Shown here: piece by piece, positions 1 to 59,969 of the stretch | Layout of the letters: each line of letters starts with the position of its first letter | Numbering within the stretch: position 1 is the stretch's first letter | Assembly: GCF_037975245.1 (NCBI RefSeq) | Contig: NC_092568.1 | Location: forward strand, 39,820,631-39,884,630 | Direction: 5' to 3' | Length of the DNA stretch: 64,000 bases | Source of the DNA: Apostichopus japonicus | Lineage: Eukaryota > Echinodermata > Holothuroidea > Aspidochirotida > Stichopodidae | Program-made: the position numbers and the translations under genes | Notes under the pieces: generated by a model | Seen by the model: the letters and a program-made list of their open reading frames with translations, nothing else | What the model was told of the DNA's origin: nothing | Database searches by the model: none

Positions 1-3000
1 ACATTCACTGTGGTTGTGTTCCACAGTGACTCTTGTTCCTATTTTATGATGATTTGTTCTTTTCTTTATCTATTCGTTTCTTTGCAGGGGGTAAGTATTC
101 TCTTGATTACAATTTGTAGATATATGTCATTATCTACTCCACTGTCAACGAAACCATTACTTCCTGTTAATTCTTTATAATTTACACAGCATTGAGTACG
201 TACAATAAAATCATTAACATGTTTATCAATTATATGACTGACAATGTCTTAATGAAGATAGAACGATTCTTCTCAAATGAAATTTTAACTACAACGTTAA
301 ACCATCTGTGGTATAATCTAGTGAAGTGATGATTGAAAACGGAATAGCTAAGGAAAGTTTGTTGGATCAGCTGTAATAAACTCACATTCACTGTGCTTTT
401 TTTTCCCCTTTTTTTTTAACTGTTATGTGACGATTTGTTCTTTCTTCTTCTTCTATATATTCGTTTCTTTGCAGAACGTAAGTCGTTTTCTTGATTAACA
501 TTTGTAGATACGTTTTATTATCAATTCCCCTTTCAATAAACCCACCTCTTTCTGTTAATTCTTTATAAGTTACAAATTTTGAATGAAATATTGTAATTTT
601 TACAACATTGATTATGCACAATCTAAGACAATAACATGTTTAATGTTTCCATGGATCGCAATATATATCAATGAAGATAGATCAATTGTTTTTAAATAAA
701 TCTGTAATTCTACCATTAGTTATTGCAAATATCAGCTAATGAGGTTGAAGGCCGAAAACAGCGGAAAAGCTAAGGAAAGCTATTTGTTTCAATTGTAATA
801 AAGTAACATTTTAAAGTCACCGTGTTTGTGTTATGACTAATTTTCTCTATTAAATATTGATTCGTTCTTTCCTTCTTTCTATCTGTTCGTTTCTTTGCAG
901 GCGGTTAGTAGTTATCATGATTAACGTTTGTAGAACAGTGTGATTATCCATTAACATGATATAAAATATTCCTGTTAATTCTTTATTTGCATACACAATT
1001 TGAATAAAATTTGATAATTGCACAACATTGGTTATGCAAAGTTAAATGCAAGTTAAATAACATGTTAATGGATTATATGAATAGCAATATCAATGAAGAT
1101 ATATCGTTTGTTCTGATATAAACGTGTAATTTTAACTTTAAACCACTCATGATATGAGCTAATGAGATGATGAGCCAAATCAGTGGAAAAGCTTAACATC
1201 CCTGTGTGATTTAATTATTTAAAGAAAATTCGTAATTTGATGTCACTTTGGTTACGTTTTTACTAACTCTTGTCTATTATGTGATGATGTGTTACTTTCT
1301 CTTTCTATCTATTTGTGTGTTATGTTGCAGGTGGTAAGTTTTTGTTTTTGTGATAAACATTTGTAGATTCGTTTCAGTTTCTATTCCCCTTTCAAAGAAA
1401 CTACCAGGAAAATTAGTTCCTTTCAATACTTTACATCCTTATATATTTTGAGTGAAATATTACACTTTGCACAACGTTGATGACGCACAATTAATCAATA
1501 ACATGTTTATCGATAATGTGACTGGTAATGTCAATGAAGATGAAATGATTCTTCTGAAATAACTTAAACTACAACATTTTACCATTAATTGTATGATATA
1601 GTGAGGTGAAGAGTGAAAAGCTAAGTAAAGCTAGTTGGTTCAGTTATAATAAACTCACATCCGTTGTGTTTATGTTTCCAGTCTTATCCCTAATATATGA
1701 TGAATTTCTCTTTAATTTTATCTCTTCGTTTCTTTGCAGGCGGTAAGTCGTTTTCTTAATAAACGTTTGTAGATACGTGTCAATGTATTCTCCGATTTCA
1801 AAAATAACAAGCCAATTCCTGTTAATTCTTAATAATTTACACAGCATTGATGACGTACAATTAAATCATTAACATGTTTATCGATTATATGGCTGGCAAT
1901 GTCAATGTTGATTGAACGATTCTTCGAAATGAACTTGTTACTTCACCGTTTAACCATTAATGGTATGATCTAGTGAGGTAATGGACAAGAAAACGGAATA
2001 ACTGAGGAAAGTTAGTTGGATCAGAACTCACATTCACTGTGTTTGTGTTTCCAGTCTTTTTACTGTTATATGATGATTGTTCTTTCTTCTTTCTATCGAT
2101 TCTTTTCTATGCAGACCGTAAGTATTTTTCTTTCAAACATTTGTAGATACGTATCATTATCTATTCCCCTTTCAAATTAAACACTTCTTCCTGTTAATTC
2201 TTATAATTTACACTATTTGAAAAACATATTGTAACTTTCACTGCTTATAACGCTAATCTAAGACAACATGTTTATTGTTTGCATGGATAACCATGTCGAG
2301 AAAGATAGATCAATTGTTTTTATATAAATCTGTTACTCTAACATTTACCATTGAAGTTATCAGCTGGTGAGGTTAAGAGCCAAAAGCAGCAAAAAAGCTA
2401 AGGAAAACTGGTTGTTTCAAATATAATAAACTGACATTTTAAAGTCACCGTGTTTGTGTTTTTACTGTTTTTCTCTATTATATAATAATTCGTTCTTTTA
2501 TTCTTTTTATCCGATCCTTCCTTTGCAGGTGGTAAGTACTCATCATAAATAACGCTTGTAGAACAGTGTTTTCATCCTTTTTACATGACGGAAATTATAT
2601 TCCTGTTAATTCTTTAGTATCATACGCAATTTGAATGAAATTTTATGTTTTGCAAAATTTAATACAAGTTTAAAAACATGGGTATCGATTATATGAACTG
2701 TAGTTTCAATAAAGAGAGAGCGACTGTTGTAAAATGAATTTATCACTATAATATTTAACCATTGAATTATATGAGCTAGTGAGGTGATTAGCTAAAAACA
2801 TGAAATAGGTTAATGAAAACTAGTGGTTTCAATTATAATAGCTTTCGTTTTATAGTCACAATTTAATATTTTTAAATTGTTATCTATTATATTACGATTT
2901 CTTCTCTTCTTCTTTCTATAAATTCGTTTCGTTGCAGATCGTAAGTCTTTTTCATGATTAACGTTTGTAGATATTTATAATGATCTATTCCACTTTCAAA

Positions 3001-6000
3001 GAAGGCACCAGGGGGGTCAAATCCGTTTTATTCTTTATTCTTGAAAAGAAATGTGACAAATTTTACAACATTTGGAATGCACACTTAAATACAATCACAT
3101 GTTTATGGATAACTTTAATTGGAATGTCAATGAAGAAAACCGATTGTTTGGAATTGAATTTGTAACTCTAATATTTACACATGAATGGTGTTGTGTCGGT
3201 CCCGGGACAACCTAACAAACGTATAGGAAAACTTCATTGACAAACACTATAACGCAATAGGTCCGTCTAAACGGTTAACGTAATGTATTGTGATTTATTA
3301 ACAAGAAAGTGTTCTTCAAGAAACCTTGGTAGATGTTACATAACACATACCATACCATTCAAATTAAGGTATGCATAAATTAACATATATCAAACAATAT
3401 CGTAAACAGATTATTTGGTGGCGCTAAGTATCTATTCAACATTCCTCCCCTTCTTCTCATAAGAATATATATCAATATTCGCAATACTTGTTATACGAAA
3501 TTATTAATTATATGGCACTCGGCAACTTTTCAAAAAAATACGTTTCCTATAAACTTTCTTATTCTAGACTTCTAAAATTACTCACGATGAAATATTAAAT
3601 AGAACAAATTGTTTACGAGTACGTGACGATCGTCTCAAATTAGGTGTTACTGAATTTTAAGCTTTTGCCACGTCTGGGACCGAAACAACAACGATTTCAA
3701 ATTCTGTTCCTGCGATTCTACTTCAGAAACGGGAGAACTATTTCTCTTTAAACCATGAGTGACGTCATCAACACCAGTTGATTTCGGTTTATTGATCTCG
3801 TCAGAGTCAACAGTAATATCTAAATCCACAATACTTGGCAAGGGATTTAAACCGTTAGATGTGTGCATTTTACTACTATAAGGCTTACATGATCTTGATC
3901 TGATTTGATTAATATGTCTTTTCCATATATGATCATCAACTTTAACCAAATATTTTACAGGACCCAATACTTTAAAAATGGTGCCTTCAACCTATTTATC
4001 AGACGATGATCTAAAATTCGAAACCATGACCTTTTCTCCTACGGAAACAGATCTAATAGCCTTTTCAGTATTTGAATTCTGTTTCTGTGACAGTGAAAAA
4101 TTCAAATTTGGTTAAAAGAATTTAATTAAAGAATAATTTGGCAGGCGTTTCTTTGGTTAAAGATGATCTATATGACAACAGAAATCGATCGATTTTAATT
4201 TGAACGTTGCCACTTTCGAATTTCCATTTTTTCATTGCCTGTTTCAACGTACGAACAAAGCGCTCTGCTTCGCCATTAGATGCTGGGTGTTTGACAGCAC
4301 TTCTAATATGGCGAATGCCATTTTGCTTGCAAAAGACGTTAAACTCTTCAGCAATAAATTGGGGGCCATTATCTGATACTAGCTCTTTTGGCAAGCCGTA
4401 GCGTGCAAATATGGTCCTCAATTCATTGATAGTTTTATTAGCAGTTGTGGATTTCATTAGGATGACCTCTGGCCACTTTGAATGAGCGTCAACAACTATC
4501 AAATACATATGACCGAGGAATGGACCCGCAAAGTCAACGTGAATACGTTGCCATGGTGCGGTGGGCCATTTCCAAGGATTTACATCAACCTTTGGGAGAA
4601 CAGATTGAACTGATTGACACGCATTACACGATTCAACAAGCTGCTCAATCTGCAAATCTAGACCTGGCCAATACACATGCATCCTAGCAAGTGACTTCAT
4701 CCTTACCATACCAGGATGACTGGCGTGCAATTCGCTTAGAATGCGATCTCGGTAACTCGAATGAATGATCACACGAATTCCCCATAAAAGACAATTGCCT
4801 TCGACGGAGAGTTCATTTCTTTTGCTAAAATATGGCGTCATTTCTTTGTTTAAGTTTTCTTCCGGCCAACCATACAGAACAAAATGTCTAACTCTTGATA
4901 AAATAGGATCACTACTCGTAGCTGTTGCAATTCTTCTGCGCTGACAGGTAAAGATTGAATTTGCGCCTGATTCAAATCATTAGCTTCATTCGTCCACAAT
5001 ACAGCAAACTGATCAACTGTTTTAAGTTTATTACTAGTATGCGCGCTCGAAGTTGGCAATCTAGAAGAGAAATCTACATTTGCATTTTGTTTGGATGTAC
5101 GGTACTGAATATCATATTCATAACCACTCAGAAGGATAGCCCAACGTTGCAATCTAGATGCGGCTAACACAGGGATGCCTTTGTTAGGACCAAACAGAAA
5201 CTTCAATGGCATATGATCGGTGAACAAAGTGAACCGCTTCCCACAAAAGATATTGGTGGAAAATGCGCACTCCATAAACAATTGCTAGGGTCTCTCTTTC
5301 GATTTGAGAATAATTTTGCTCAGTTTTCGTTAGTTTCCTGGAAGCATATGCAATTGGTTTCTCTCCTTCCGGAGTTGAATGTGAGATAACTGCACCAATA
5401 CCATACGGTGATGCATCAACTGAAAGCGTAATCTCCTTAGAGGGGTCAAAGTACACGAGCCCTTTTGAGGAGGTGAGAATTTCTTTAATATCCTCAAATG
5501 CTTGTTGACAATCGCTAGACCATATAAATGTTTTGTCACATCGCAAAGCTGAAGTCATTGGGGCCATAACAGATGATAAATTTGCATGAAATTTACGATA
5601 ATAATTTATAAGCCCTATGAGTGGTTGCAGTTCCTGCTTATTTTGTGGAGCAGGGGCGTTAACAACAGCCTCAACTTTTGCAGGAGATGGGAGAATGCCC
5701 TTAGCATCTACAATAAAACCAAGATACTCGATCGAGTCCCGAAAATATGAACACTTTGATTCCTTAAGTCTCAAACCAACCTCGTCGAGTTTCTTGACTA
5801 CCTGATCCAAGTTCCTTAAATGTTCTTCGTCAGTTTTACCAGTGACGATAATATCGTCAAGATAGCAACCCACCCCATTCAATCCACCCAAAATTTGGTC
5901 CATGCATTGTTGAAAAATTGCAGGGGCGGAGCTTTACTCCAAACGGTAGTCTTGTATACTGAAAAAGACCTAAATGGGTGTTGATCGTAACATATTTTCT

Positions 6001-9000
6001 GGAATCGGGATCTAAAATATTTGCAAGTATGCATTTGACAAGTCTAGTTTTGAGAACTTTTGACCACCCTGCAGCTGTGCAAATAACTCGTCGGGACCTG
6101 GCAAAGGATATTCTTGTTGGTGCATTACTGTGTTAATTGTGACCTTGTAGTCCCCGCAAACCCGGATATTACCGTCCCCTTTTCTCACTGGGACAATTGG
6201 GGCGGCCCAATCAGAAAAATCTACTTTTTCTAGCACACCCTCCTTCACTAGTCTATTTAGCTCTTCTGATACCTTAACCTTGATAGCTAGAGGCATGGGC
6301 CTTGGTTTGTAAAATTAGGGCGTTGCATCAGGTTTTATCCTAAGTTTCGCTTGGATGCCTTTGACTGTACCCAATTTCTTATTAAGTACGTTACTACCAG
6401 ACAATATCTCATTGACTTTGTCTTTTGGTGACAAATACACACGATTGATTTTTTGCCAATTTAAATGCAAGTGTTCCAACCAATTTCGACCCAAAAGGGC
6501 GGGACCATTCCCTTCAATGACAAACAAAGGCAATGCTTTTTCGATTCCATTATCCTTAACTTTAACGCTACATTTTCCTTTTACAGGTATCTTCTCTCCT
6601 GTAAATGTTTTCAAAACTGCTTTTGTGGGTTTAATGTCAACCTTAGTCGACAGTGCCTTAACAAATAGATCGTTTGGAATTAGGGAAACACCAGCCCCCG
6701 TATCAAATTCCATAGTTATCTTTTGGTTTTCAATTTCAACTTGAACTTCAATTGGTTTGCTTGACGCAAGTAACTTTACATAGTAAACTGTGACGTATTC
6801 GTCACCACTCTCTTCACCACTAGTACTAGAATCATATTCAGTGGTTTGATTTACTTCCCCAATTCTCGAACTATGTTTACTCTTTTTACTTGTCCTATGC
6901 AAAGAATTACGTTCCTTATCACTTGGTTTACTTACATCTGGATTTCGCCTGCAAACAACCTTTAAATGTCCAACACAATCACAAATATGACACTTATAGT
7001 CCTTATAATAACAGTCCTTTTTAAAATGTCCTGGTTTACCGCGGCACGAACAGAACAGAACACTCGATGACTCGTTGGCTTAGATGTCACGTGATGAACG
7101 CTGGCCCTGGCAGACCCTTCCTTGATAATTGCTGCGTTTTTGGCGGCGGACTCCATACTCATGGAAATTTTCACGGCATTATCCAGCGTTAATGAATCGT
7201 CTTCCGACAAGAGCCTTTTCTGGATATTATTGTCGTAAATCCCGCAAACGAAGCGGTCACGCAGTTTATCCTTCAGGAAACTTCCGAAATTACACGTGCT
7301 AGTCATTCTCTTAGTTCGGCTAAAAACTCTGCAATTGTAGTTGACGAGCTCTGGTTGTAGTTGTAAAATCGGAATCTCTCCAGTAAAACTGGGGGATTGG
7401 GATTGTAGTATTCTCTCAAAGTCCCACAAATTTCGTGAAACTTCTTCGATGATGGCTTGTCCGGCGATACAAGATTTTTCAAAAGTCCATAGCCTTTTGC
7501 TCCCATTGAAGACAAAAGTATCGCCACTTTTTTTTTATTATCCTCTACCTCATATGCTTGGAAAAACAGATTCAAACGTTCCTCGTATGATTCCCAAATT
7601 TCCACAACAGGATCATAAATCTCCACTTTTAACATGTTGGAAGCCATAGTTTCTCCTTCTCCCGGTAAGAATTCCTTTTGGAACTTACGTTTTATTTCCG
7701 ACTATCCTCCTCGCTAGTTGTTGTGTCGGTCCCGGGACAACCTAACAAACTTATAGGAAAACTTCATTGACAAACACTATAACGTAATAGGTCCGTCTAA
7801 ACGGTTAACGTAATGTATTGTGATTTATTAACAAGAAAGTGTTCTACAAGAAACCTTGGTGGATGTTACATAACACATACCATACCATTCAAATTAAGGT
7901 ATGCATAAATTAACATATATCAAACAATATCGTAAACAGATTATTTGGTGTCGCTATGTAACTATCAAACAAATGGCATGAGTAAACCAGGTTTTGCGCA
8001 AAAAAAGGACAGCTTATGAAAAGTAGTTGTTTAACCTATCATAAATTTACATTATAAAGTCACTGTATTTTTTTTCTGTTTTTCTCTACTAAATCATAAT
8101 TCGTTCTTTTCTTTCATCTATTCGTTTCTCTGCAGACCGTAAGTCTTTATCATGATCGGCATTTGTAGATACGCGTTATTATCTATTCCCTTTTCAAAGA
8201 AACCACCAGGGATATCAATTCCTGTTAATTCCTAAGTTTCATTCACAATTTGAGTGAAATAGAATCTTTTCAACATTGACAACGCACAATCTAAGACAAT
8301 AACATGTTGATTTTTAACATGGATCGCCATGTCAATGAAGATAGATCAATTGTTTTTAAATTATTTTGTTACTCTAACATTAACCATCGATATTATCAGC
8401 TAGTGAGGTTAAGAGCCAAAAGCATCAAGCTAAGGAAACTAGTTGTTTCAATTTAAATAAACTGACATTTTTACTGTTTTTCTCTATTACATATTGATTC
8501 GTTCTTTTCTTCTTTCTATCTGTTCGTTTCTTTGCAGGCGGTAAGTTGTTATCGTGATTAACGTTTGAAGAACATTGTAATTATCTATTAACATGAGGGG
8601 AAAATATTTTATGTTAATTCTTTAATTTTATACACAATTTGAATAAAATTTGATAATTTGCACAACACAGGTAACGCACGATTTAATACAAGTTTAATAA
8701 CATGATTGTTGATTATATGATTGGCAATATCAATGAAGAAAGATCGTTTGTTCTGAAATAAATGTGTAACTTTAACTTCAAAACATTAATGATATGAACT
8801 AATGAGGTGATGAGCTACAACAATGGAAAAGCTTAACAAAACTCTTTGATCTAATCATAAAAAACAATCGCAATTCAAAGTCACTTTGTTTACGATTTTA
8901 CTAACTCTTGTCTATTATGTGATGATGTGTTACTTTCTTTTTCTATTTATTTGTGTGTTTTGTTGCAGTCGGTAAGTTTTTTTACGTGATTATATTTGTA

Positions 9001-21000: not shown

Positions 21001-24000
21001 TGGTTGGATCAGCTGTTTTAAACTTACATTCACTGTGTTTGTGTTTCCATTCTTTTCTTGTTATATCATGATTTGTTCTTTCTTCTTTCTATCGACTCTT
21101 TTCTATGCAGACCGTAAGTCTTTTTCGTAATAAACATTTGAAGATATAAATCCTTATCTACTCCCCTTTCAAATAAACCACTGATACCTGTTAATTCTTA
21201 TAATTTACACTATTTAAATGAAATATTGTAACTTTCACAACATTGATAATGGACAATCTATGACAATAACATATAAATTGTTAACGTGGATCGCCATGTC
21301 AATGAAGATAGATCAATTGATTTTAAATAAATTTGTTACTCTAACATTAACCATTGCAGTTTTCAGCTAGTGAGGTTAAGAGCCAAAAGCAGCCAAAAAG
21401 CTAAGGAAAACTAGTTTTTGTTTTTGTGTTTTTATTGGTTTTCTCTTTTATATCATAATTCGTTCTTTTCTTCTTTTCATCCAATCCTTTCTTTGCAGGT
21501 GGTAAGTACTCATCATAATTAACGTTTTAGATCAGTGTTATTATCTTTTAGTATGAGGGAAATTATATTCCTGTTAATTCTTTAGTTTCATACACAATTT
21601 GAATGAAATTTAATAATATTCATAGCATTGGTAACGCACAATTTAATACAAGTTTAAAAACATGTGTATCGATTATATGAATGGTAGTTTCAATAAAGAG
21701 AGAGCGACTGTTGTGAACTGAATTATCACTTTTATATTTAACCATTAAAGATATGAGCTAGTGAGGTGATTAGCTACAAACATGAAAAAGGGTTAAGGAA
21801 AACTAGTGGTTTCAATTATATTAGCTTTCCTTTCAAAGTCACTATTTTGATATTTTCACATTTTCATCTATTATGTTACGATTTGTTCTCTTATTTTTTC
21901 TATCTATTCGTTTGGATGCAGATGGTAAGTCTTTTTCATGTTCAACGTTTGTAGATATATATAACGATCTATTCCACTTTCAAAGAAGGCACCAGGGAGT
22001 CAAATCCTTTTTATGCTTTATTCCTAAAAAAGAAATGTGACAATTTTCACAACATTAGGAATGCACAATTGAATACAATAACATGTTTATGGATTACTTT
22101 AATTGGAATGTCAATGAAGATAAACCGATTGTTTGGAATTTAATTTGTAACTCTAATATTAGCACATGAATGGTATAAGTGAACCAGGTTTTGTTCCTAA
22201 AAAGGACAGCTTATGAAAACTAGTTGTTTACTTATCATAGACTTACGTTTGGAAGTCACTGTATATTTATTTTTATCTGTTTTTCTCAATAATATAATAA
22301 TTCGTTCTTTTCTTTTATCAATTCGTTTCTCTGCAGAAGGTAAGTCTTTATCAGGATAAACATTTGTAGATACGTGGTATTATCTATTCCCCTTTTAAAG
22401 AAACCACCAGGGATATCAATAATTCCTAAGTTTCATTAACAATTTGAATGAAATATAAAGGTTTCAACACTTGTAACGCACAATCTATGACAATAACATG
22501 TTGATTGTTTACATGGATCGACATATCAATAGAGATTGTTTTTAAATAAATGGGTAACTCTAACATTACCCATCTATGTTATCAGCTAGTGAGATTAAGA
22601 GCCAAAATCAGCAGAACAGCTAAGGAAACTAGTTGTTTCAATTATAATAAACTGACATTTTAATGTCACCGTGTTAGTGTTTTACTGTTTAACTGTTTTT
22701 TCTCTATTAAATGATGATTCGCTCTTTTCTTCTTTCTATCTGTTCGATTCTTGGCAGGCGGTAAGTTGTTATCATGATTAACGTTTGCATATCAGTATTA
22801 TTATATATTAACATAAGGGGTAATATTTCCTGTTAATTCTTTATTTTGATACACAATTTGAATAAAGTTTAAAATTTGCCCAACATTGGTAACGCACGAT
22901 TTAAGTTTAATAACTTGATTATTGATGATATGAATGGCAATATCGAAAAGATAGATCGATTGTTCTGAAATAAATTTATCACTTTAACGTTGAGACATAA
23001 TTATATGAGCTAATTAGGTGATAAGCCACAACAGTAGAAGAGCTTAACAAAACTGTTTGATTCAAGTATAAAAAATATTCGCAATTTGAAGTCACTGTGT
23101 TTAAGTTTTTACTGACTCTTGTCTATAACGAAATTATTTGTTACTGTTTTTCCTATCTACTTGGGATTTTTGCAGCTGGTAAGTTTTCTTAAATTTAAAT
23201 TTGTAGATACATGTCAGTTTCTATTCAAATTTCAAAGAGAACAATAGGCAAATCAGTTCGTTTATATTCTTCATTGCCTTACACAATTTCAGTGAAATAT
23301 TACAATTTTCACAACATTAATGACGCACAATTTAATCAAGAACGTGTTTATCGATTATATGATTGGTAATGTCAATGGAGATAAAATGCTTCTTCTGAAA
23401 TGAAGTTGTATGTACAACATTTTACCATTGATAGTATGATCTAGTGAGGTGTTGAAAGCTTGAAAAGCTTAAGAAAGCTAGTTAGATCAGTTGTAAGAAA
23501 CTAACATTCACTGTGTTTATGTTTCCGTTCTTTTCCCTATTATATGATGATTTGTTCTTTTCTTTTATGTATTCGTTTGTTTGCAGGCGGTAAGTCCTCT
23601 TCTTGATTAACGTTTTTGTAGATACATGTCATTATATACTCCACTTTCAAAGACACCACCAATTTCTGTTAATTCTTTATAATTTACACAACATTGATGA
23701 CGTACAATTTAGTCATGTTATAACATGATGTCATAACAATAACATGTTATAATACGACTGGCAATGTCAATGAAGATAGAACGATTCTTCCGAAATGAAC
23801 TTGTAACTACAACATTTAACCATTAGTGGTATGATCTAGTGAAGTGATGAGCGATAAACGTAATAGCTAAGGAAAGTTAGTTGTTTTGGCTGTTATAAAC
23901 TCACCTTCGCTGTGTTGTGTTTCCAGTCTTTTCACTGTTATATGATGATTTGTTCTTTCTTCTTTCTATCGATTCCTTTTTCTTTGCAGCCCGTAAGTCT

Positions 24001-27000
24001 TTATCATTATTAATATTGCAGATACGTGTTATATATTAATTCTCCTTTCAAAGAAACCATCAGACATATCATTTCCTGTTAATTTTTAAGTTTCATTTAC
24101 AATTTGAGTGAAATATAATTTTCACAACATTGGTAACGCACAATCTATGACAATAACATGTTGATTGTTTACATGGATAACCATGTCAATGAAGATAGAT
24201 TATTTTTTTTAAATTGAATTTTTAACTCTTACACATTCATCATCGATGTTATTAGCTAGTGAGGTTGAGAGCCAAAAGCAGATTTTCGTTTGTAGAACAG
24301 TGTTGCTACCTATTAACATGAGGGAAAATATTTTCTGTTAATTCTTTATTTTGATACACAATTTGAATAAAGTTTATAATTTGGACAACATTGGTAACGC
24401 ACGATTTAATACAAGTTTAATAAAATGAATATTGATGATATGAATGGCAATATCAATGAAGGTAGATCGATTGTTCTGGAATAAATTTGTAACTTCAACG
24501 TTAAGACATGATAATATGAGCTAATTAGGTGATAAGCCACAACAGTAGAAGGGCCTAACAAAACTGTTTGATTCAAGTATCAAAAAAACTCGCAATTTGA
24601 AGTCACTGTGTTTAAGTTTTTACTGACTCTTGTCTATAACGAAATGATTTGTTACTGCTTTTCCTATCCATTTGGGATCTTTGCAGCTGGTAAGTTTGTT
24701 TTTAATTAAAATTTGTAGATACATGTCAGTTTCTATTCAATTTTCAAAGAAAACAATAGGCAAATCAGTTCGTTTAAGCAGTGTTATTATCTATTCACTT
24801 CTAGGAAAATATTTCCTATTAAGTCTTTATTTACAAACACATTTGGAATAAAATTTTGTAATTTGCACAACATAGGTAACGCACGATTTAATACAAATTT
24901 GTTCACATGTTTATTGAATATATGAATAGAAATATCGATGAAAATATATCGAATGTCATGAAATACATTTGTAACTTTTAAGTTAAACCATTAATTTTGA
25001 AGTCACTGTGTTTGTGTTTTTATTGTTTTTCGCTCTTAAATATTGATTCGTTCTTTCCTTCTTTCTATCTGTTTGTTTCTTTGCAGGCGGTAAGTAGTTA
25101 GCATGATTATCGTTTGAAGATCAGTGTTATTATCTATTATGATACAAAATTTGAATAAACTTATATAATTTGCACAACATTGGTAACGCACGAATTATAC
25201 AAGTTTAATAACATGATTGTTGATTAAATGATTGGCAACATTAATGAAGGTAGATTGATTGTTCTGAAATATATTTGTAACTGTAACATTAGGAAATAAA
25301 TAATATGAGCAAATTAGGGTATGAGCCACAACAGTGGAAAAACTTAACAAAACTGATTGATTAAAGTATAAAAAATACTCGCAATTTGATGTCACTGTAT
25401 TTAAGGTTTTTACTGATTCTTGTCTATTATTAAATGATTTGTTACTTTTTTTCCTACCCATTTGGGATTAATGCAGATGGTAAGTTTTTTTTAATTAAAA
25501 TTTGTAGAAACATGTCAGTTTCTATTCAACTTTTAAAAAACCATCATGCAAATCAGCTCCTTTAAATTCTTTATTTCCTTACACAATTTGAGTGAATTAT
25601 GACACTTTTCACAACATTGATGACGCACAATTTAATCAATAACGTGCTTATCGATTGTATGACTGGTAATGCACAACTTGGTAACGCACGAATTATACAA
25701 GTTTAATAACATGATTGTTGATTAAATGATTGGCAACATTAATGAAGGTAGATTGATTGTTCTGAAATATATTTGTAGCTGTAACATTAGGAAATTAATA
25801 ATATGAGCAAATTAGGGTATGAGCCACAACAGTGAAAAAACTTAACAAAACTGATTGATTAAAGTATAAAAAATACTCGCAATTTGATGTCACTGTATTT
25901 AAGGTTTTTACTGATTCTTGTCTATTATTAAATGATTTGTTACTTTTTTTCCTACCCATTTGGGATTAATGCAGGTGGTAAGTTTTTTTTAATTAAAATT
26001 TGTAGAAACATGTCAGTTTCTATTCAACTTTTAAAAACCATCATGCAAATCAGCTCCTTTAAATTATTTATTTCCTTACACAATTTGAGTGAATTATGAC
26101 ACTTTTCACAACATTGATGACGCACAATTTGTAACTTTAACGTTAAGACATAATAATATGAGCTAATTAGGTGATAAGACACAACAGTAGAAGGGCCTAA
26201 CAAAACTGTTTGATTCAAGTATAAAAAGACTCGCAATTTGAAGTCACTGTGTTTAAGTTTTTACTGACTCTTGTCTATAACGAAATGATTTGTTACTGTT
26301 TTTCCTATCCATTAGGGATCTTTGCAGGTGGTAAGTTTTTTTTTTTTTAATTTAAATTTGTAGATACATGTCAGTTTCTATTCAATTTTCAAAGAAAACA
26401 ATAGGCAAATCAGTTCGTTTAAACAGTGTTATTATCTATTCACTTCTAGGAAAATATTTCCTATTAAGTCTTTATTTACAAACACATTTGGAATAAAATT
26501 TTGTAATTTGCACAACATAGGTAACGCACGATTTAATACAAATTTGTTCACATGTTTATCGAATATATGAATAGCAATATCGATGAAAATATATCGAATG
26601 TCATGAAATACATTTGTAACTTTTAAGTTAAACCATTAATTTTGAAGTCACTGTGTTTGTGTTTTTATTGTTTTTCGCTCTTAAATATTGATTCGTTCTT
26701 TCCTTCTTTCTATCTGTTTGTTTCTTTGCAGGCGGTAAGTAGTTAGCATGATTATCGTTTGAAGATCAGTGTTATTATTTATTATGATACACAATTTGAA
26801 TAAACTTATATAATTTGCACAACATTGGTAACGCACGAATTTATACAAGTTTAATAACATGATTGTTGATTAAATGATTGGCAACATTAATGAAGGTAGA
26901 TTGATTGTTCTGAAATATATTTGTAACTGTAACATTAGGAAATTAATAATATGAGCAAATTAGGGTATGAGCCACAACAGTGGAAAAACTTAACAAAACT

Positions 27001-29930
27001 GATTGATTAAAGTATAAAAAATACTCGCAATTTGATGTCACTGTATTTAAGGTTTTTACTGATTCTTGTCTATTATTAAATGATTTGTTACTTTTTTCCT
27101 ACCCATTTGGGATTAATGCAGGTCGTAAGTTTTTTTTTAATTAAAATTGTAGAAACATGTCAGTTTCTATTCAACTTTTAAAAAACCATCATGCAAATCA
27201 GCTCCTTTAAATTCTTTATTTCCTTACACAATTTGAGTGAAATATGACACTTTTCACAACATTGATGACGCACAATTTAATCAATAACGTGCTTATCGAT
27301 TGTATGACTGGTAATGTCAATGGAGATAAAATGCTTCTTCTGAAATGAAGTTGTATGTACAACATTTTACCATTGATGGTATGATCTAGTGAGGTGTTGA
27401 GCGAAAAACAAGGAAAAGCTTAAAAAAAGCTAGTTGTATCAGTTAAACCATTAATGATATGGGCCAATGAAGTGATGAGATTTGAAATCACTGTGTTTAC
27501 ATTTTTACTGACTCTTGTCTATTGTGTGATGATTTTTTAAATTCTTCTTTCTATCTATTTGGTGTTGTTTTTTGGCACCTGGTAATTTTTTTTGTGATTA
27601 TATTTGTAGATACGCGTCAGTTTCTATTCCCCTTTCAAAAACACTATCAGGCAAATCAATTCCTTCAAATTCTGTATTTCAATGAGTTAGTTAGTTGGTT
27701 CAGCTGTAATAAACTCACATTAATTGTGTTTTTGTTTCCAGACTTTCACTGCGATATGATGATTTGTTCTTTCTTTTTTCTATCTATGCCTTCTTTACAG
27801 AAGGGAAGTCTTTATCATGATTAACATTTGTAGATATAGATAATGATCCATTCCACTTTCAAAAAAGGCACCAGCGAAGTCAATTTCTTTTTATTCTTTA
27901 TATTTAAATGAAATGTGACAATTTTCACAACATTAGAAATTCAAAATTGACTAAATAACATGTTTATGGATAACTTTAATTGAAATTTCAATGAAGATGA
28001 ACCGATTGTTTGGAAATAAGATTGTAACTTTAATATTTAAATATGAATGTTATGAGTGAACCAGGGTTTGGGGGGAAAAAGAAACTAAAGGAAAAAACTA
28101 GTTGTTTAACTTTTTAGAAACTTAAATTTTAGAGTCACCGTGTTTGTGTTTTGACTAATTTTCTCTATTAAATATTGATTCGTTCTTTCCTTCTTTCTAT
28201 CTGTTTGTTTCTTTGCAGGCGGTAAGTAGTTATCATGATTATCGTTTGAAGAACAGTGTTATTAACCATTATGAAGGATAATATTTCCTGTTAATTCTTT
28301 ACTTTCATACACAATTTGAATAAAATTTTATAATTTGCCCAACATTGGTAACGCACAATTTTATACAAGTTTAATAACATGATTGTTGTTTAAATGATTG
28401 GCAACATCATTGAAGATAGATCGATTGTTCTGAAATATATTTATAACTGTAACATTAAGACATTAATAATATGAGCAAATTAGGGGATGAGCCACAACAG
28501 TGGAAAAGCTTAACAAAACTGATTGATTAAAATATAAACAACACTCGCAATTTGAAGTCGCTGTCTTTAAGTTTTTACTGATTTTTGTCTATTATTAAAT
28601 GATTTGTTACTTTTTTTCATACCTATTTGGGATTATTGCAGTTGTTAAGTTTTGTTTTAATTAAAATTTGTAGAAACATGTCAGTTTATATTCAACTCTT
28701 AAAAAACCATCATGCAAATCAGCTCCTTTAAATTCTTTATTTCCTTACACAATTTGAGTGAAATATTACAATTTTCACAACATTGATGACGCACAATTTA
28801 ATCAATAACATATTATCGTTTACATGGATCGCCATGATTGACGTTAGAAGATCAGTGTTATTATTTATTAACATGAATTAAATTAGTTCCTGTTAATTCT
28901 TCATTTTCATACACAATTTGATATGAAATTCTAAAATAATTTGCACAGCAATGGTAACCCACAATTTAATGCAAGTTTAAAAACATGTTTATCGATTAAA
29001 TAAATGGCAATGTCAATAAAGAGAAGAGCGACTGTTGCGAAATAAATTTATCAGTATAATATTCAACTATTGAAAGAATATGAGCTAGTGAAGTTACGAA
29101 CAGAAAACATGAAAAACATTCAGGAAAACTAGTTGTTTCAATTATAATATCTTACATTTTGTAGTCACTATGTTGTTGTTTTTACTGTTTTGTATATTAC
29201 ATGAAAATAGAACAATTGTTTTGAAATGATTTTTTTACTTTTACATTTAACCATTGATGATATGAGCTAGTGAGGTGATGAGACGAAAACTGTGGAAAAG
29301 TTCAGGAAATTAGTCTTTTGTCCTATAATAAATTGAAATTTAAAGTCACTGTATTTGTGTTTTTCCTTTTTCTTATCTATGATACGATGATTTGATCTTT
29401 CCTTTTTTATTTAATAGGGTCTTTAGAGCTGGTAAGCTTTCTTTCTTTTTTCATGATATACGTTGGTAGATACCTGTGATTATCTTTTCACCTTTAAAAA
29501 ATCTACCAGGGATGTCAATTTATGGTAATTCCTTTATTTTAATTTTGAATTAAATATTTTAATTTTTACAACATTGGTCACGCTAAAGTGATAACAAATG
29601 TCTATAAAGCTAGAACGATTGTTTTGAAATGACTTAGTTTTTCACAACATTGGCAATGCTCAATTTGAATACAATAACATTTCAATAGAATATATGAATG
29701 GCAAAGTCATTGAAGATAGAACGATTTTTTTAAATGAATTTGTTACTTTAACTTTTCAATGTTGATGATATGAGCCACAGAGATGATCATTCAAAAACAG
29801 GTTTTAGAAGACTGGTTTTGTCACTTAAAATGAACTTACATTTTAAATGTATTTGGGTTCTCTTTTGTTCTTCTCTATGATATAATGATTTAATTTTTCT
29901 TCTTTTTATCTAATCGTTTCTTTGCAGCTG
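1..29930 (+). CDS. Tandem array of single-codon (3-nt) microexons, partial gene
   Basis: Seen: about 59 units of roughly 0.4 kb. Each has a pyrimidine tract, an acceptor (usually TTTGCAG), three bases and a donor (usually GTAAGT). 55 cores are intact, 4 decayed. By hand count the 55 triplets use 16 codons (GCG 15, GTG 8, CTG 6, ACC, AAG and GGG 4 each), end in G or C in 53 cases, contain no stop and are about 72% GC while the flanks are AT-rich. Triplets recur with period 11 units, giving repeats such as TAVGDALAKVI. Inference: each core is a one-codon phase-0 exon, so about 165 coding bases are spread over 30 kb. The predicted repeat is an amphipathic helix; function unknown. The array continues left of the window. 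An alternative is a satellite that only looks spliced; ordered triplets, preserved splice sites and tolerated intronic insertions argue against that. No family recognised. Confidence 0.6.
88..90 (+). CDS. Microexon 1, GGG (Gly), column 4
   Basis: Acceptor tttgcag ends at 87, donor gtaagt starts at 91. Confidence 0.6.
475..477 (+). CDS. Microexon 2, AAC (Asn), column 5
   Basis: Acceptor ctttgcag, donor gtaagt. The only Asn; other blocks have Asp, Glu or Pro here. Confidence 0.6.
901..903 (+). CDS. Microexon 3, GCG (Ala), column 6
   Basis: Acceptor tttgcag, donor gttagt. The GTTAGT donor is shared with column 6 of blocks 1 and 2. Confidence 0.58.
1331..1333 (+). CDS. Microexon 4, GTG (Val), column 7
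   Basis: Acceptor gttgcag, donor gtaagt. A TACTAAC branch-site-like word lies about 65 bases upstream. Confidence 0.6.
1740..1742 (+). CDS. Microexon 5, GCG (Ala), column 8
   Basis: Acceptor tttgcag, donor gtaagt. Confidence 0.6.
2115..2117 (+). CDS. Microexon 6, ACC (Thr), column 9
   Basis: Acceptor tatgcag, donor gtaagt. Confidence 0.6.
2529..2531 (+). CDS. Microexon 7, GTG (Val), column 10
   Basis: Acceptor tttgcag, donor gtaagt. The column 10 post-donor sequence starts gtaagtactcatcat. Confidence 0.6.
2938..2940 (+). CDS. Microexon 8, ATC (Ile), column 11
   Basis: Acceptor gttgcag, donor gtaagt. The following intron hosts the Ty3/Gypsy element. Confidence 0.6.
3184..3188. repeat. Target-site duplication of the Gypsy element, left
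   Basis: aatgg, repeated at 7972-7976. Uninterrupted array units read aatggtatgagtg at this place. Confidence 0.85.
3189..3441 (-). repeat. 3' LTR of the Gypsy element
   Basis: 253 bp, TG...CA ends, matching 7719-7971. Downstream of integrase in the element's orientation. Confidence 0.92.
3442..3458 (-). other. Polypurine tract of the Gypsy element
   Basis: Pyrimidine run on the plus strand, purine on the minus strand, directly adjacent to the 3' LTR, as expected for the plus-strand primer. Confidence 0.75.
3647..3967 (-). CDS. Gypsy integrase C-terminal fragment
   Basis: Begins MGPVKYLVKVDDHIWKRHIN, the GPY/F-type module found after the integrase core, then a polar tail. Separated from the core by stops between 4122 and 3967. 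Confidence 0.75.
   Translation of the reverse strand: MGPVKYLVKVDDHIWKRHINQIRSRSCKPYSSKMHTSNGLNPLPSIVDLDITVDSDEINKPKSTGVDDVTHGLKRNSSPVSEVESQEQNLKSLLFRSQTWQKLKIQ
4122..4841 (-). CDS. Gypsy integrase core
   Basis: 239 codons. An N-terminal HHCC zinc-binding region (ASHPGMVRMKSLA then ESCNACQ) is followed by the rve catalytic core with the DDE residues in VDFAGPF, VSDNGPQF and NGEAERF. It would insert the cDNA. The stop at 4122 separates it from its C-terminal part. Confidence 0.93.
   Translation of the reverse strand: MTPYFSKRNELSVEGNCLLWGIRVIIHSSYRDRILSELHASHPGMVRMKSLARMHVYWPGLDLQIEQLVESCNACQSVQSVLPKVDVNPWKWPTAPWQRIHVDFAGPFLGHMYLIVVDAHSKWPEVILMKSTTANKTINELRTIFARYGLPKELVSDNGPQFIAEEFNVFCKQNGIRHIRSAVKHPASNGEAERFVRTLKQAMKKWKFESGNVQIKIDRFLLSYRSSLTKETPAKLFFN
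4900..5490 (-). pseudogene. Gypsy RNase H domain, frameshifted
   Basis: Starts LSVDASPYGIGAVISH (catalytic Asp), followed by AYASRKLTKTEQNYSQIERE with the conserved Glu and, after a shift near 5275, LFTDHMPLKFLFG. This is the retrotransposon RNase H order directly after RT. Confidence 0.88.
5480..6296 (-). pseudogene. Gypsy reverse transcriptase, frameshifted
   Basis: The first part (6296-6012) carries VRKGDGNIRVCGDYK and LDLSNAYLQI (motif A Asp). The frame shifts in 6012-5903 and continues with the catalytic YLDDIIVTG motif and the thumb region (LGFIVDAKGI). The frame break falls between motifs A and C, so this copy cannot make an active enzyme without frame correction. Confidence 0.92.
6315..6902 (-). 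CDS. Gypsy retropepsin-like protease
   Basis: Open frame of 195 codons with the aspartic protease active-site motif DTGAGVSLIP near residue 68 and the partner motif ALLGRNWL near residue 135, in the usual order between gag and reverse transcriptase. It ends in a stop before the RT frame. Confidence 0.88.
   Translation of the reverse strand: MHRTSKKSKHSSRIGEVNQTTEYDSSTSGEESGDEYVTVYYVKLLASSKPIEVQVEIENQKITMEFDTGAGVSLIPNDLFVKALSTKVDIKPTKAVLKTFTGEKIPVKGKCSVKVKDNGIEKALPLFVIEGNGPALLGRNWLEHLHLNWQKINRVYLSPKDKVNEILSGSNVLNKKLGTVKGIQAKLRIKPDATP
6905..7647 (-). pseudogene. Gypsy gag-like region, frameshifted
   Basis: Starts MASNMLKVEIYDP and has the retrotransposon capsid-type region (LRDRFVCGIYDNNIQKRLL). 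A shift near 7330-7420 moves the frame. A C-terminal nucleocapsid part around 7050-6950 is readable in another frame: one perfect CX2CX4HX4C knuckle (CHICDCVGHLKVVC) preceded by a second knuckle in which one cysteine position is Arg. It would package RNA in an intact element. Confidence 0.85.
7719..7971 (-). repeat. 5' LTR of the Gypsy element
   Basis: 253 bp, upstream of gag in the element's orientation, so it would hold the promoter. I could not assign a tRNA primer site next to it. Confidence 0.92.
7972..7976. repeat. Target-site duplication of the Gypsy element, right
   Basis: Second copy of aatgg directly after the LTR. Confidence 0.85.
8136..8138 (+). CDS. Microexon 9, ACC (Thr), column 1
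   Basis: Acceptor tctgcag, donor gtaagt. First unit after the retrotransposon. Confidence 0.6.
8538..8540 (+). CDS. Microexon 10, GCG (Ala), column 2
   Basis: Acceptor tttgcag, donor gtaagt. Confidence 0.6.
8969..8971 (+). CDS. Microexon 11, TCG (Ser), column 3
   Basis: Acceptor gttgcag, donor gtaagt, upstream TACTAAC. The only Ser; other blocks have Val or Leu here. Confidence 0.6.
9258..9260 (+). CDS. Microexon 12, GGA (Gly), column 4
   Basis: Acceptor tttgcag, donor gtaagt. One of only two triplets ending in A. The preceding intron is short, about 286 bases, from an internal deletion. Confidence 0.6.
9641..9643 (+). CDS. Microexon 13, GAC (Asp), column 5
   Basis: Acceptor tttgcag, donor gtaagt. 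The following intron contains the foldback MITE. Confidence 0.6.
9904..10700. mobile_element. hAT-like foldback MITE with tandem repeats in its arms
   Basis: 797 bp with an 8-bp duplication gttataag (9896-9903 and 10701-10708). The ends form an imperfect inverted repeat (ggaagctggtcacttcgccc versus its complement). Each arm holds tandem copies of a unit around ttcgcccaacc, so arms can pair extensively. The core has a duplicated gttcgggaattgttaacgtta segment. No coding frame. The 8-bp duplication is the hAT signature. Confidence 0.85.
10845..10847 (+). CDS. Microexon 14, GCG (Ala), column 6
   Basis: Acceptor ttttcag, donor gttagt. Confidence 0.56.
11271..11273 (+). CDS. Microexon 15, CTG (Leu), column 7
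   Basis: Acceptor tttgcag, donor gtaagt. Confidence 0.6.
11677..11679 (+). CDS. Microexon 16, GCG (Ala), column 8
   Basis: Acceptor tttgcag. The donor is gtaatt, weaker than the array consensus. Confidence 0.52.
12050..12052 (+). CDS. Microexon 17, AAG (Lys), column 9
   Basis: Acceptor tatgcag, donor gtaagt. Lies in the segment nearly identical to block 2. Confidence 0.6.
12468..12470 (+). CDS. Microexon 18, GTG (Val), column 10
   Basis: Acceptor ttcgcag, donor gtaagt. Confidence 0.6.
12882..12884 (+). CDS. Microexon 19, ATC (Ile), column 11
   Basis: Acceptor gatgcag, donor gtaagt. Confidence 0.6.
13297..13299 (+). CDS. Microexon 20, ACC (Thr), column 1
   Basis: Acceptor ttttcag, donor gtaagt. 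Confidence 0.6.
13727..13729 (+). CDS. Microexon 21, GCG (Ala), column 2
   Basis: Acceptor tttgcag, donor gtaagt. Confidence 0.6.
14150..14152 (+). CDS. Microexon 22, GTG (Val), column 3
   Basis: Acceptor tttgcag, donor gtaagt, upstream TACTAAC. Confidence 0.6.
14568..14570 (+). CDS. Microexon 23, GGG (Gly), column 4
   Basis: Acceptor tttgtag (TAG instead of CAG, still functional by rule), donor gtaagt. Confidence 0.58.
14947..14949 (+). CDS. Microexon 24, GAC (Asp), column 5
   Basis: Acceptor tttgcag, donor gtaagt. Confidence 0.6.
15349..15351 (+). CDS. Microexon 25, GCG (Ala), column 6
   Basis: Acceptor ttttcag, donor gttagt. Confidence 0.56.
15782..15784 (+). CDS. Microexon 26, CTG (Leu), column 7
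   Basis: Acceptor tttgcag, donor gtaagt. Confidence 0.6.
16190..16192 (+). CDS. Microexon 27, GCG (Ala), column 8
   Basis: Acceptor tttgcag. The donor is gtactt, the weakest GT donor in the regular array. Confidence 0.48.
16563..16565 (+). CDS. Microexon 28, AAG (Lys), column 9
   Basis: Acceptor tatgcag, donor gtaagt. Near-identical surroundings to microexon 17. Confidence 0.6.
16980..16982 (+). CDS. Microexon 29, GTG (Val), column 10
   Basis: Acceptor tttgcag, donor gtaagt. Confidence 0.6.
17403..17405 (+). CDS. Microexon 30, ATC (Ile), column 11
   Basis: Acceptor gatgcag, donor gtaagt. Confidence 0.6.
17824..17826 (+). CDS. Microexon 31, AAG (Lys), column 1
   Basis: Acceptor tctgcag, donor gtaagt. 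Lys where blocks 1 and 2 have Thr. Confidence 0.6.
18261..18263 (+). CDS. Microexon 32, GCG (Ala), column 2
   Basis: Acceptor tttgcag, donor gtaagt. Confidence 0.6.
18680..18682 (+). CDS. Microexon 33, TTG (Leu), column 3
   Basis: Acceptor cttgcag, donor gtaagt. Confidence 0.6.
19097..19099 (+). CDS. Microexon 34, GGG (Gly), column 4
   Basis: Acceptor tttgcag, donor gtaaga. Confidence 0.58.
19489..19491 (+). CDS. Microexon 35, GAA (Glu), column 5
   Basis: Acceptor tttgcag, donor gtaagt. GAC to GAA keeps an acidic residue although it weakens the exon end. Confidence 0.6.
19911..19913 (+). CDS. Microexon 36, GCG (Ala), column 6
   Basis: Acceptor tttgcag, donor gtaaga. Confidence 0.58.
20334..20336 (+). 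CDS. Microexon 37, CTG (Leu), column 7
   Basis: Acceptor tgtgcag, donor gtaagt. Confidence 0.6.
20731..20733 (+). CDS. Microexon 38, GGG (Gly), column 8
   Basis: Acceptor tttgcag, donor gtaagt. Gly where other blocks have Ala. Confidence 0.6.
21111..21113 (+). CDS. Microexon 39, ACC (Thr), column 9
   Basis: Acceptor tatgcag, donor gtaagt. Confidence 0.6.
21499..21501 (+). CDS. Microexon 40, GTG (Val), column 10
   Basis: Acceptor tttgcag, donor gtaagt. Confidence 0.6.
21922..21924 (+). CDS. Microexon 41, ATG (Met), column 11
   Basis: Acceptor gatgcag, donor gtaagt. Met where other blocks have Ile. Confidence 0.6.
22337..22339 (+). CDS. Microexon 42, AAG (Lys), column 1
   Basis: Acceptor tctgcag, donor gtaagt. 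Confidence 0.6.
22758..22760 (+). CDS. Microexon 43, GCG (Ala), column 2
   Basis: Acceptor ttggcag, donor gtaagt. Confidence 0.58.
23176..23178 (+). CDS. Microexon 44, CTG (Leu), column 3
   Basis: Acceptor tttgcag, donor gtaagt, TACTGAC upstream. Confidence 0.6.
23587..23589 (+). CDS. Microexon 45, GCG (Ala), column 4
   Basis: Acceptor tttgcag, donor gtaagt. Ala where other blocks have Gly. Confidence 0.6.
23990..23992 (+). CDS. Microexon 46, CCC (Pro), column 5
   Basis: Acceptor tttgcag, donor gtaagt. The only Pro in the series, at the point where the regular array ends; it could terminate the helix. Confidence 0.58.
24687..24689 (+). CDS. Microexon 47, CTG (Leu), column 3/7 type
   Basis: Acceptor tttgcag, donor gtaagt. 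Follows the deletion that removed column 6. Confidence 0.52.
25087..25089 (+). CDS. Microexon 48, GCG (Ala), column 6 type
   Basis: Acceptor tttgcag, donor gtaagt. Confidence 0.52.
25477..25479 (+). CDS. Microexon 49, ATG (Met), column 3/7 type
   Basis: Acceptor aatgcag, donor gtaagt. Confidence 0.5.
25975..25977 (+). CDS. Microexon 50, GTG (Val), column 3/7 type
   Basis: Acceptor aatgcag, donor gtaagt. Recent duplicate of microexon 49 in which the triplet is one of few differences (ATG versus GTG). Confidence 0.5.
26328..26330 (+). CDS. Microexon 51, GTG (Val), column 3/7 type
   Basis: Acceptor tttgcag, donor gtaagt. Duplicate of microexon 47 with CTG changed to GTG. Confidence 0.5.
26732..26734 (+). 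CDS. Microexon 52, GCG (Ala), column 6 type
   Basis: Acceptor tttgcag, donor gtaagt. Duplicate of microexon 48. Confidence 0.5.
27122..27124 (+). CDS. Microexon 53, GTC (Val), column 3/7 type
   Basis: Acceptor aatgcag, donor gtaagt. Duplicate of microexon 49 with a different triplet. Confidence 0.5.
27579..27581 (+). pseudogene. Decayed microexon 54 (CTG)
   Basis: The acceptor AG is lost (ggcac) and the donor is gtaatt, so it is not predicted to splice. Confidence 0.45.
27801..27803 (+). pseudogene. Decayed microexon 55 (AAG)
   Basis: Acceptor tttacag is intact, but the donor GT has become GG (ggaagt). Confidence 0.45.
28219..28221 (+). CDS. Microexon 56, GCG (Ala), column 6 type
   Basis: Acceptor tttgcag, donor gtaagt; intact core among decayed neighbours. 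Confidence 0.45.
28642..28644 (+). pseudogene. Decayed microexon 57 (TTG)
   Basis: Acceptor attgcag is intact; the donor has become ttaagt. Confidence 0.45.
29427..29431 (+). pseudogene. Decayed microexon 58
   Basis: The spacing is no longer three: ctttag then five bases then gtaagc. If used, it would shift the frame. Confidence 0.35.
29928..29930 (+). CDS. Microexon 59, CTG (Leu), last intact core
   Basis: Acceptor tttgcag, donor gtaagt, the last perfect core in the window. Confidence 0.45.
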
Positions 29931-31971: not shown

Positions 31972-31986
31972 GGCCGCAAAATTTGA
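31972..31986 (+). CDS. Candidate terminal exon, option 2
   Basis: The acceptor ttttcttcgcatttacag ends at 31971. In phase 0 the exon reads G-R-K-I then TGA. It follows the last recognisable half unit of the array (about 31755-31865). A possible AATAAA is at 32169-32174. The phase fits single-codon exons, but this could be chance. Confidence 0.25.
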   Translation, partial: GRKI

Positions 31987-39690: not shown

Positions 39691-40476
39691 GCCCGATAAT
39701 AAGCGGAAACGGATCACCGACCGAAAAAATATCGGAATTTGTGGACTATTTCTTGCTTCCTATTGTATTAAAACAAAGCACCTATGTGAAAGACACAAAT
39801 CACATTCTGAAAATTGTGGAAGCCACCCCGTTACCAAAAGCAGTAGTACTTGCTACACTCGATGTCGTCGCCATGTATACCAATACTCCCCAAGAGGAGG
39901 CATTAGATATATGTCAAGAAGTCTATGAAAAGGCGGAAAAAAACGAATATGGAATAAATAAAATATCTTCCATATCCATGCGCAAACTAATTGAACTTAT
40001 TTTTAACAAGAAACTGTTTCGAGTTCAATAACCAATTCTATCTACAAAAGATCGGTTGCGCCATGGGTAGCCAAGACTCTCCGGAAATCTGTGATATCGT
40101 CATGCATAGACTGGAAAACCAGATTTTACCGACAGATAATAAAATCTTAAAATGGCTCCGCTATAGAGATGAAATTCTATTGCTTTACGACGGTTCACCT
40201 CAGGAACTTGAACAACTAGTAAACAGGTTGAATGAAATTCACCGCTTCTTAAAGTTTACGGTAGAAATATTACACACCGAGGTAACATACCTAGATTTGA
40301 AAATCTTCAAAGGTCCAAGGTTTGAAACCAATGGGTTATTAGACACCAAAGTCTACACCAAACCCACGGAAACCTTCCAATACCTCGACAGAAACTCTGC
40401 ACACCCACTTGCCACTTTTAAAGGCTTCATTAAAGGGGAAGTCTTACGATTGGCACTTAATCTCGCAACACGCGGA
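39691..40476 (+). pseudogene. Penelope-like reverse transcriptase fragment
   Basis: Starts at gpiISGNGSPTEKISEFVD and includes motif A (TLDVVAMYTNTPQEE), motif B (GCAMGSQDSPEICD) and VTYLDLKIFKGPRF, a Penelope-like RT order. A frame shift near 40022 splits it. The catalytic motif C reads YRDEILL instead of an aromatic-x-DD type, so it is dead. It is interrupted at 40476 by a hAT element and resumes at 42185. Confidence 0.85.
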
Positions 40477-57880: not shown

Positions 57881-57892
57881 ATTTCTGCTTAC

Positions 57893-58127: not shown

Positions 58128-58170
58128 TTTAACAAGAGAACCTCAGACCTGAGTAATGGAAGTGAAGGTT

Positions 58171-59945: not shown

Positions 59946-59969
59946 GGAGCAACAAACTTGAATGCTGAT

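Follow-up and report, generated by a model that had tools for sequence, protein, structure and literature searches.

Parts of the gene architecture described here are known from the micro-exon genes (MEGs) of schistosomes, the bicycle genes of aphids, single three-nucleotide exons and plant microexons. In the schistosome MEGs the short exons number 10-20 and measure 6-81 bp, most often 15 bp (3-81 bp in the abstract of the same paper); these very short exons are mostly multiples of three, the introns measure 0.1-5 kb, automatic annotation is difficult, and binding or agglutination of membranes, possibly by way of amphipathic helices, was reported for two of the products (PMC10526429). The aphid bicycle/megacycle genes contain many small internal exons in one phase, with more than 100 microexons in the megacycle gene (PMC9168663). 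Single 3-nt microexons are spliced in homothorax and troponin T of Drosophila and in NCAM of mouse and rat (PMC7392893), and microexons as small as 1 nt occur in plants (PMC8831610). The locus treated here is an array of three-base exons in the holothurian Apostichopus japonicus (RefSeq assembly GCF_037975245.1, 671.6 Mb in 35 contigs), on contig NC_092568.1, called C8. The window, that is the whole stretch of DNA analysed, comprises 64,000 nucleotides (C8:39,820,631-39,884,630, read on the forward strand); eight-digit positions without a contig name are those of C8 and shorter ones those of the window.

Judged from its sequence, the array is probably the body of a spliced protein-coding gene of the + strand in which each codon of the main part is an exon of its own, and the gene is most likely an extreme variant of the micro-exon gene, present in several copies. 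As in the MEGs, the coding sequence consists mostly of short symmetric exons (77 of 80 have 3 nt, in phase 0 in the model); unlike in them, at least 77 consecutive exons are of exactly 3 nt each and derive from a single tandem unit. The internal exons of the bicycle genes are almost all in phase 2, whereas those of the array correspond to one codon each, in phase 0 according to the model and the stop counts. In homothorax, troponin T and NCAM the 3-nt exons are lone elements of ordinary genes, in contrast with an array of repeat origin. No sequence link with the MEGs was found among the protein (E <= 1) and Pfam searches, in which MEG sequences were not compared individually. The first-pass annotation of the window, made by a model from the letters, had failed to match the array to any described gene, and no report of an array of 3-nt (one-codon) exons was found in the literature searched either, subscription papers being mostly outside it.

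In the window, 56 three-base exons with intact AG and GT were identified between 88 and 29,930 (donor variants allowed), 46 of them at 88-23,990 and 10 at 24,687-29,928, together with three exons with a broken site: CTG at 27,579 (acceptor AC), AAG at 27,801 (donor GGAAGT) and TTG at 28,642 (donor TTAAGT). The first-pass annotation, which had counted about 55 exons of three bases in units of about 0.4 kb, was accurate in number and coordinates. The start-to-start distance of the intact exons has a median of 415 bp (250-480 bp in 48 of 55). All 44 units of the four rows of eleven exons (A-D, Table 1) have both AG and GT intact. According to a position-weight scan of the window, the exons are preceded by a T-rich tract ending in (T)GCAG and followed by a GTAAGT-type donor. 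The strict motif [CT]AG-N3-GTAAGT occurred 48 times on the + strand of positions 1-30,000 and never on the - strand, and was absent from both strands of 30,001-64,000; 50 Markov (dinucleotide) shuffles contained it 0 or 1 times each. Spacings of 0-12 other than 3 yielded no match on the + strand of the array and two in the rest of the window, both of spacing 6. The series is broken up by a Ty3/Gypsy element and a small repeat-bounded insertion, each within an intron, and its true start is upstream of the window edge, where 21 more intact exons were identified from 9 kb upstream on. The window's array including this upstream part is called array H.

The scans for 3-nt spacing on a larger scale covered 264 kb (the window plus 200 kb upstream). 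A generic scan without training on 3-nt exons (11/15 pyrimidines, [CTA]AG and a strong donor within 59 nt) identified 175 exons of 3 nt on the + strand, no more than 6 for each of the other lengths between 0 and 59, and none of 3 nt on the - strand; a single one of the 175 was far from the arrays, at 39,700,171. A splice-site model trained on 3-nt exons, with acceptor and donor scored apart, identified 207, 206, 198 and 188 pairs 3 nt apart on the + strand at four thresholds and each time none on the - strand, which was scanned for length 3. Arranged by spacing, the + strand pairs were 207 at 3, none at 0-2 and 4-9, one each at 10, 11 and 12, and 22 at 25, the last probably reflecting a second donor-like site in the intron downstream of true exons. 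With the same model no 3-nt pairs were found in the 96 kb before the arrays (39,620,631-39,717,000) or in the 31 kb after them (39,853,000-39,884,630). Genome-wide, the exact pattern TTCTTTGCAGNNNGTAAGT, which is derived from the window array and therefore biased toward its kin, had 79 forward and 0 reverse matches, on C8 for all matches listed, where the reversed control had 1 and 0. The generic pattern YYYYYYYYYYNCAGNNNGTAAGT matched 41 times forward and 7 times in reverse (control, 10 and 6), and these 48 matches comprise 18 in the C8 arrays, 14 TCG exons on C16 and 16 elsewhere, the last being equal to the control's number. The 3-nt exon pattern was not found in viral contigs.

Judged by unit homology, the window array is a member of a dispersed family of homologous-unit arrays on C8 and C16, here arrays S, G, H and V and the C16 array (Table 1). 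The introns of different arrays are 60-64 % alike, in aligned units preselected for a 3-nt exon, and the single C16 unit compared (401 bases) was homologous to the window unit (unit model, 2.8e-34). These homologous arrays carry quite different triplets at a constant length of 3 nt. Of the units that span the exon, those with an intact one number 79/83 in S, 60/64 in G and 67/84 in H, some of the remainder in H being true exons under the threshold. The clear intact exceptions in length, found by eye, are two 6-nt exons of array G, GGATTG at 39,765,858 and GGGATG near 39,774,850. Among spacings of 0-12 other than 3, array V had a single match, a chance-like one at 7. Separately, four more pattern matches (CCG, AAT, CCG and GTG) were noticed at C8:39,582,702-39,597,006, possibly another gene of the family, and six dispersed copies of the motif TYCTTTTCCTCCAGCTGGTAAGT (C9, two on C13, C14, C17 and C18) represent a splice-like triplet in some other repeat.

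The phase-0 reading of rows A-D is a repeat of 11 residues, of the GDALAKVITAV kind, with the pattern of an amphipathic helix. Its hydrophobic moment at 100 degrees is 0.456, with the peak at 99 degrees, and permutations of the class order equalled the observed moment in 8 of 5000 cases (Eisenberg) and 6 of 5000 (Fauchere-Pliska). In the same rows the second frame contains five stops and the third is open yet unremarkable (645 and 1189 of 5000). Across arrays S, G, H and V, the stops number 2 in frame 0 (225 exons) and 7 in each of frames 1 and 2 (172 adjacent junctions), and reading frames other than 0 were rejected on these counts. Stop exons amount to 2 of 207, where 15.1 were expected from the intron triplet frequency and 8.1 from position-wise shuffles (P 0.0045, uncorrected for shared ancestry and therefore optimistic). 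Repeat proteins of the apolipoprotein, synuclein and LEA type also have 11-residue amphipathic helices, with a hendecad period, polar and apolar faces and repeats that lie inside ordinary exons. The window repeat shares the period and the two faces with them but is built from 11 intron-plus-codon DNA units, and no sequence homology to these types was detected in protein, Pfam and PDB searches.

The 11-residue pattern named in the first-pass annotation is found also as a period of the DNA units, whose identity was 0.88 at lag 11, 0.85 at lag 22 and 0.81 at lag 33, 0.71-0.73 at lags 4, 7, 15, 18, 26 and 29, and 0.67-0.69 at the remaining lags. When the flanks were compared with the exon masked, class 1 resembled class 5 (0.82), class 2 resembled class 6 (0.81), classes 3, 7 and 10 resembled each other (0.81-0.83) and class 4 resembled class 11 (0.77), other pairs reaching 0.62-0.76; from these relations the 11-unit block seems to be assembled from related pieces of 4, 4 and 3 units. 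In the 44 units of rows A-D, whose introns diverge by 10-15 %, AG and GT are invariant and so are only five other alignment columns. The three exon positions agree between classes at 0.38, 0.24 and 0.56, against 0.665 for 242 background intron columns, and their GC content is 0.66, 0.48 and 0.95 against 0.28 in the background. The entropy of codon position 2 is above that of all 215 background columns in the 44 units, and in 222 units of four arrays it was matched by 1 of 195; the variability of position 3 is unremarkable, being reached by 71 of 215 and 76 of 195 background columns. The contrast drawn earlier between a variable triplet and conserved splice signals is borne out, in the form of an invariant AG/GT and a hypervariable second codon position. 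SRRM4-type neural microexons have a UGC element shortly upstream of the 3' splice site. The acceptor consensus TTTGCAG of the array puts TGC right at the acceptor, 41 of the 44 units having G at -4, which may correspond to that element, but plain splice-site preference could account for it.

The gene ends were approached through the paralogous arrays. The region before array H (39,809,039-39,809,890) is 72-73 % alike to the one before array S (39,715,962-39,716,887). The start exons read ATG-GCT-GGA-AAC-GA in H and ATG-AGT-GGA-AAC-AG in S, each followed by GTAAGT, with 14 coding bases and a donor in phase 2; the stretches 5' of the ATG differ by 4 nt in length, as expected for untranslated sequence. 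The second exon, whose acceptor scores best in each interval, has 16 nt in H and 22 nt in S; the region that contains it is 70 % alike between the two genes over 287 bp. As the start exon ends in phase 2 and the second exon has 3n+1 nt, both genes would enter the array in phase 0, a phase that agrees with the peptide argument and the stop counts and is obtained independently of the former. At the other end, the terminal-exon region GGCCGCAAAATTTGA (window 31,972) has three paralogues behind array G, with an acceptor common to all four. The resulting H model spans 43,502 bp and comprises 276 nt in phase and 91 residues, open from ATG to stop; the modelled product, predicted to be mostly amphipathic-helical, is MAGNDLKTVHVMPEGEAGEAAGNGNAVAAGNGNAVATVITASGDALAKVITAVGDALAKVIKALGEALGTVMKALAPLAMVVAVALLGRKI. 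MEG products are secreted and require an N-terminal signal peptide. Unlike them, the array model, with the N-terminus MAGNDLKTVH, has by eye no signal peptide. A candidate first exon with such a signal at C8:39,808,484 (MNINTSYTRKLVLFSAVLLNLIYACL) was dropped, because it precedes the homology to the S gene, which starts only at 39,809,039, with the conserved start exon at 39,809,115. As a side observation, the start-exon pattern ATGNNTGGAAACNNGTAAGT was identified also at C1:1,048,033, C16:6,290,987 and C22:15,494,626, which may be chance or further members of the family.

The triplets as real, translated one-codon exons, which is how the first-pass annotation had read the array, are supported at the sequence level because the 3-nt spacing is strand-specific, homologous arrays carry different triplets, paralogous gene ends set the phase and the order of the 11 codons is amphipathic. 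Transcription, splicing as modelled, translation, helix formation, the order of intron removal and any function are what we infer from this. The introns, mostly of 0.3-0.45 kb and longer around insertions or dead units, would be recognized by near-consensus donors and T-rich TTTGCAG acceptors; since a 3-nt exon is unable to hold both splice-site complexes at once, they would be removed by intron definition, in sequence. The array would have grown by duplication of units formed by an intron and one codon, the 4+4+3 blocks first and the 11-unit blocks later. The loss of a splice site would remove one residue and never shift the frame, so that insertions and dead units would be tolerated. Sister arrays of the same unit would encode Ser/Glu/Arg-rich, Gly/Ala/Leu-rich and Val/Thr-rich tracts. 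Taken together, this is probably a dispersed animal gene family in which every residue of the main domain comes from its own exon, whose proteins change one codon at a time as intron-plus-codon units are duplicated, lost and reshuffled, in which exon skipping keeps the frame, and whose 11-residue helical repeat arose from the duplication of DNA units (4+4+3) and not of a coding stretch. If true, such a gene would be a direct test of the lower limit of exon definition, with about 80 exons joined in order without loss, 77 of them too small for both site complexes, and would represent single-residue insertion and deletion in protein evolution through the gain or loss of whole exons. Such genes likely escape present annotation, and whole families may therefore be missing from animal proteomes.

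Several points weigh against a functional gene of this kind. Within classes, the triplet positions are conserved at 0.83, 0.79 and 0.74 against 0.87 for the introns, and this slightly lower conservation argues against the exact residue being under strong purifying selection. The array is eroding toward its 3' end, and splice sites are dead in several of the upstream units. Two exons of array G are TAG, with donors GTAGGT, 137 bp behind the preceding exon. The second exon was chosen among several candidates by score, position and homology. The frame-0 readings of the terminal exons differ, with GRKI-stop in H, YQK-stop in one paralogue and frames open for 30 codons in the other two; because of this disagreement the terminal exon is the weakest part of the gene model. 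An ending outside frame 0, AGIEMFAYWYR-stop, is common to H (offset 2) and one paralogue (offset 1); it was not adopted as the C-terminus, since it would imply different entry phases for the two copies, and stops occur at those offsets in the remaining two. In protein searches, with candidates of 0.55-1.75 times the query length that share 5-residue words, neither the H product (424 candidates) nor the S+G product (a set limited to 8000 candidates) had a match at E <= 1; Pfam gave sub-threshold matches only (Senescence, 0.013) and the best E in PDB was 0.32.

Some of these points are also what would be expected of a recently dead gene, i.e. a former one-codon-per-exon gene, now a pseudogene, with splice sites kept only through recent duplication of the rows. 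The 3 broken exons out of 59 in the window, the dead upstream units, the insertions of transposable elements and the exon-less unit fragments, which extend 3' to 31,857, are in favour of it, as are the within-class triplets, not more conserved than the introns, and the protein search without a match. We consider it improbable, since AG and GT are intact throughout the 44 units although the row introns have diverged, with only five other columns invariant, and the modelled frame is open over its 91 codons. Somewhat less probable still is a non-coding satellite or splicing decoy, in which the splice signals would serve splicing or regulation, or be inherited by chance, and the triplet would be meaningless. 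The array is a tandem repeat with higher-order structure, as are many satellites, but a neutral satellite has no constrained or systematically changing position, and here AG/GT is invariant, the triplet hypervariable and the spacing fixed at 3. This length is kept, in units preselected for it, where the introns are only 60-64 % alike, the clear intact exceptions are the two 6-nt exons found by eye, stops are depleted, the 11 classes follow an amphipathic order, and the phase fits the paralogous start exons. Ratchet (recursive) splicing, in which a long intron would be shortened stepwise from site to site with no base of the array retained in the mRNA, is highly improbable. Serial AG-GT pairs within a long stretch do look like ratchet points, but these have AG and GT juxtaposed with zero bases between, and the + strand had 207 pairs at spacing 3 and none at spacing 0.

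The components of the preferred reading, a spliced gene of one-codon exons, are collected in Table 1 along with its sister arrays and the insertions.

Table 1. Coordinates of the arrays, modelled gene parts and insertions; positions without a contig name refer to the window.
Feature	Position	Strand	Description
H gene model	C8:39,809,115-39,852,616	+	34-nt start exon (39,809,115-39,809,148), 16-nt exon, 77 intact 3-nt exons (21 upstream and 56 in the window), terminal exon
Row A	88..8971	+	Eleven 3-nt exons: 88 GGG, 475 AAC, 901 GCG, 1331 GTG, 1740 GCG, 2115 ACC, 2529 GTG, 2938 ATC, 8136 ACC, 8538 GCG, 8969 TCG; GNAVATVITAS; AG/GT intact 11/11; class by intron identity
Row B	9258..14152	+	9258 GGA, 9641 GAC, 10845 GCG, 11271 CTG, 11677 GCG, 12050 AAG, 12468 GTG, 12882 ATC, 13297 ACC, 13727 GCG, 14150 GTG; GDALAKVITAV
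Row C	14568..18682	+	14568 GGG, 14947 GAC, 15349 GCG, 15782 CTG, 16190 GCG, 16563 AAG, 16980 GTG, 17403 ATC, 17824 AAG, 18261 GCG, 18680 TTG; GDALAKVIKAL
Row D	19097..23178	+	19097 GGG, 19489 GAA, 19911 GCG, 20334 CTG, 20731 GGG, 21111 ACC, 21499 GTG, 21922 ATG, 22337 AAG, 22758 GCG, 23176 CTG; GEALGTVMKAL
Eroding 3' part	23587..29930	+	12 intact 3-nt exons: 23587 GCG, 23990 CCC, 24687 CTG, 25087 GCG, 25477 ATG, 25975 GTG, 26328 GTG, 26732 GCG, 27122 GTC, 28219 GCG, 29429 CTG, 29928 CTG; 3 broken: 27579 CTG, 27801 AAG, 28642 TTG
Proposed terminal exon (start)	31972..31986	+	GGC CGC AAA ATT TGA (GRKI stop); its 3' splice site is common to four paralogues; AATAAA at 32,169
Paralogous terminal exons	C8:39,852,602, 39,792,993, 39,782,225, 39,785,316		Four, behind the arrays; frame-0 readings differ
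Array S	C8:39,717,899-39,756,906	+	80 three-base exons, mostly TCG, GAG, AGG (Ser, Glu, Arg); start exon paralogous to that of the window gene
Array G	C8:39,757,637-39,789,665	+	60 three-base exons, Gly, Ala, Leu and an Asp run
Array V	C8:40,690,601-40,698,600		TGVVGVVAMFGFALVATT, from 18 three-base exons; many codons end in T (GTT, TTT, GCT); 0.85 Mb downstream
C16 array	C16:14,747,928-14,761,996		Fourteen TCG three-base exons, 1.04-1.10 kb apart
Ty3/Gypsy retrotransposon	3190..7930	-	Intron between exons 2938 and 8136, outside the gene proper; bounds approximate, by eye
Short insertion	9910..10700		In the intron from exon 9641 to exon 10845, with a 22-bp repeat on either side (near end CATTTCGCCCAACCAGCCTGGT, far end GGTTGGGCGAAATGACCAACAA); bounds approximate, by eye

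The Ty3/Gypsy element has its frames fragmented into several pieces; the best named relative of its integrase is from Lytechinus variegatus (60 %), and over 56 % of its length the integrase is 96 % identical to a contig sequence. Two further observations concern the part of the window behind the array. A reverse transcriptase fragment was identified at 39,991-40,656 on the + strand (RVT_1, E 4.6e-6, 26.9 bits, under the curated cut-off of 29.6). On the - strand, an open frame at 59,970-60,869 matches a C2H2 zinc finger and is accompanied by further long open frames at 57,864-59,989.

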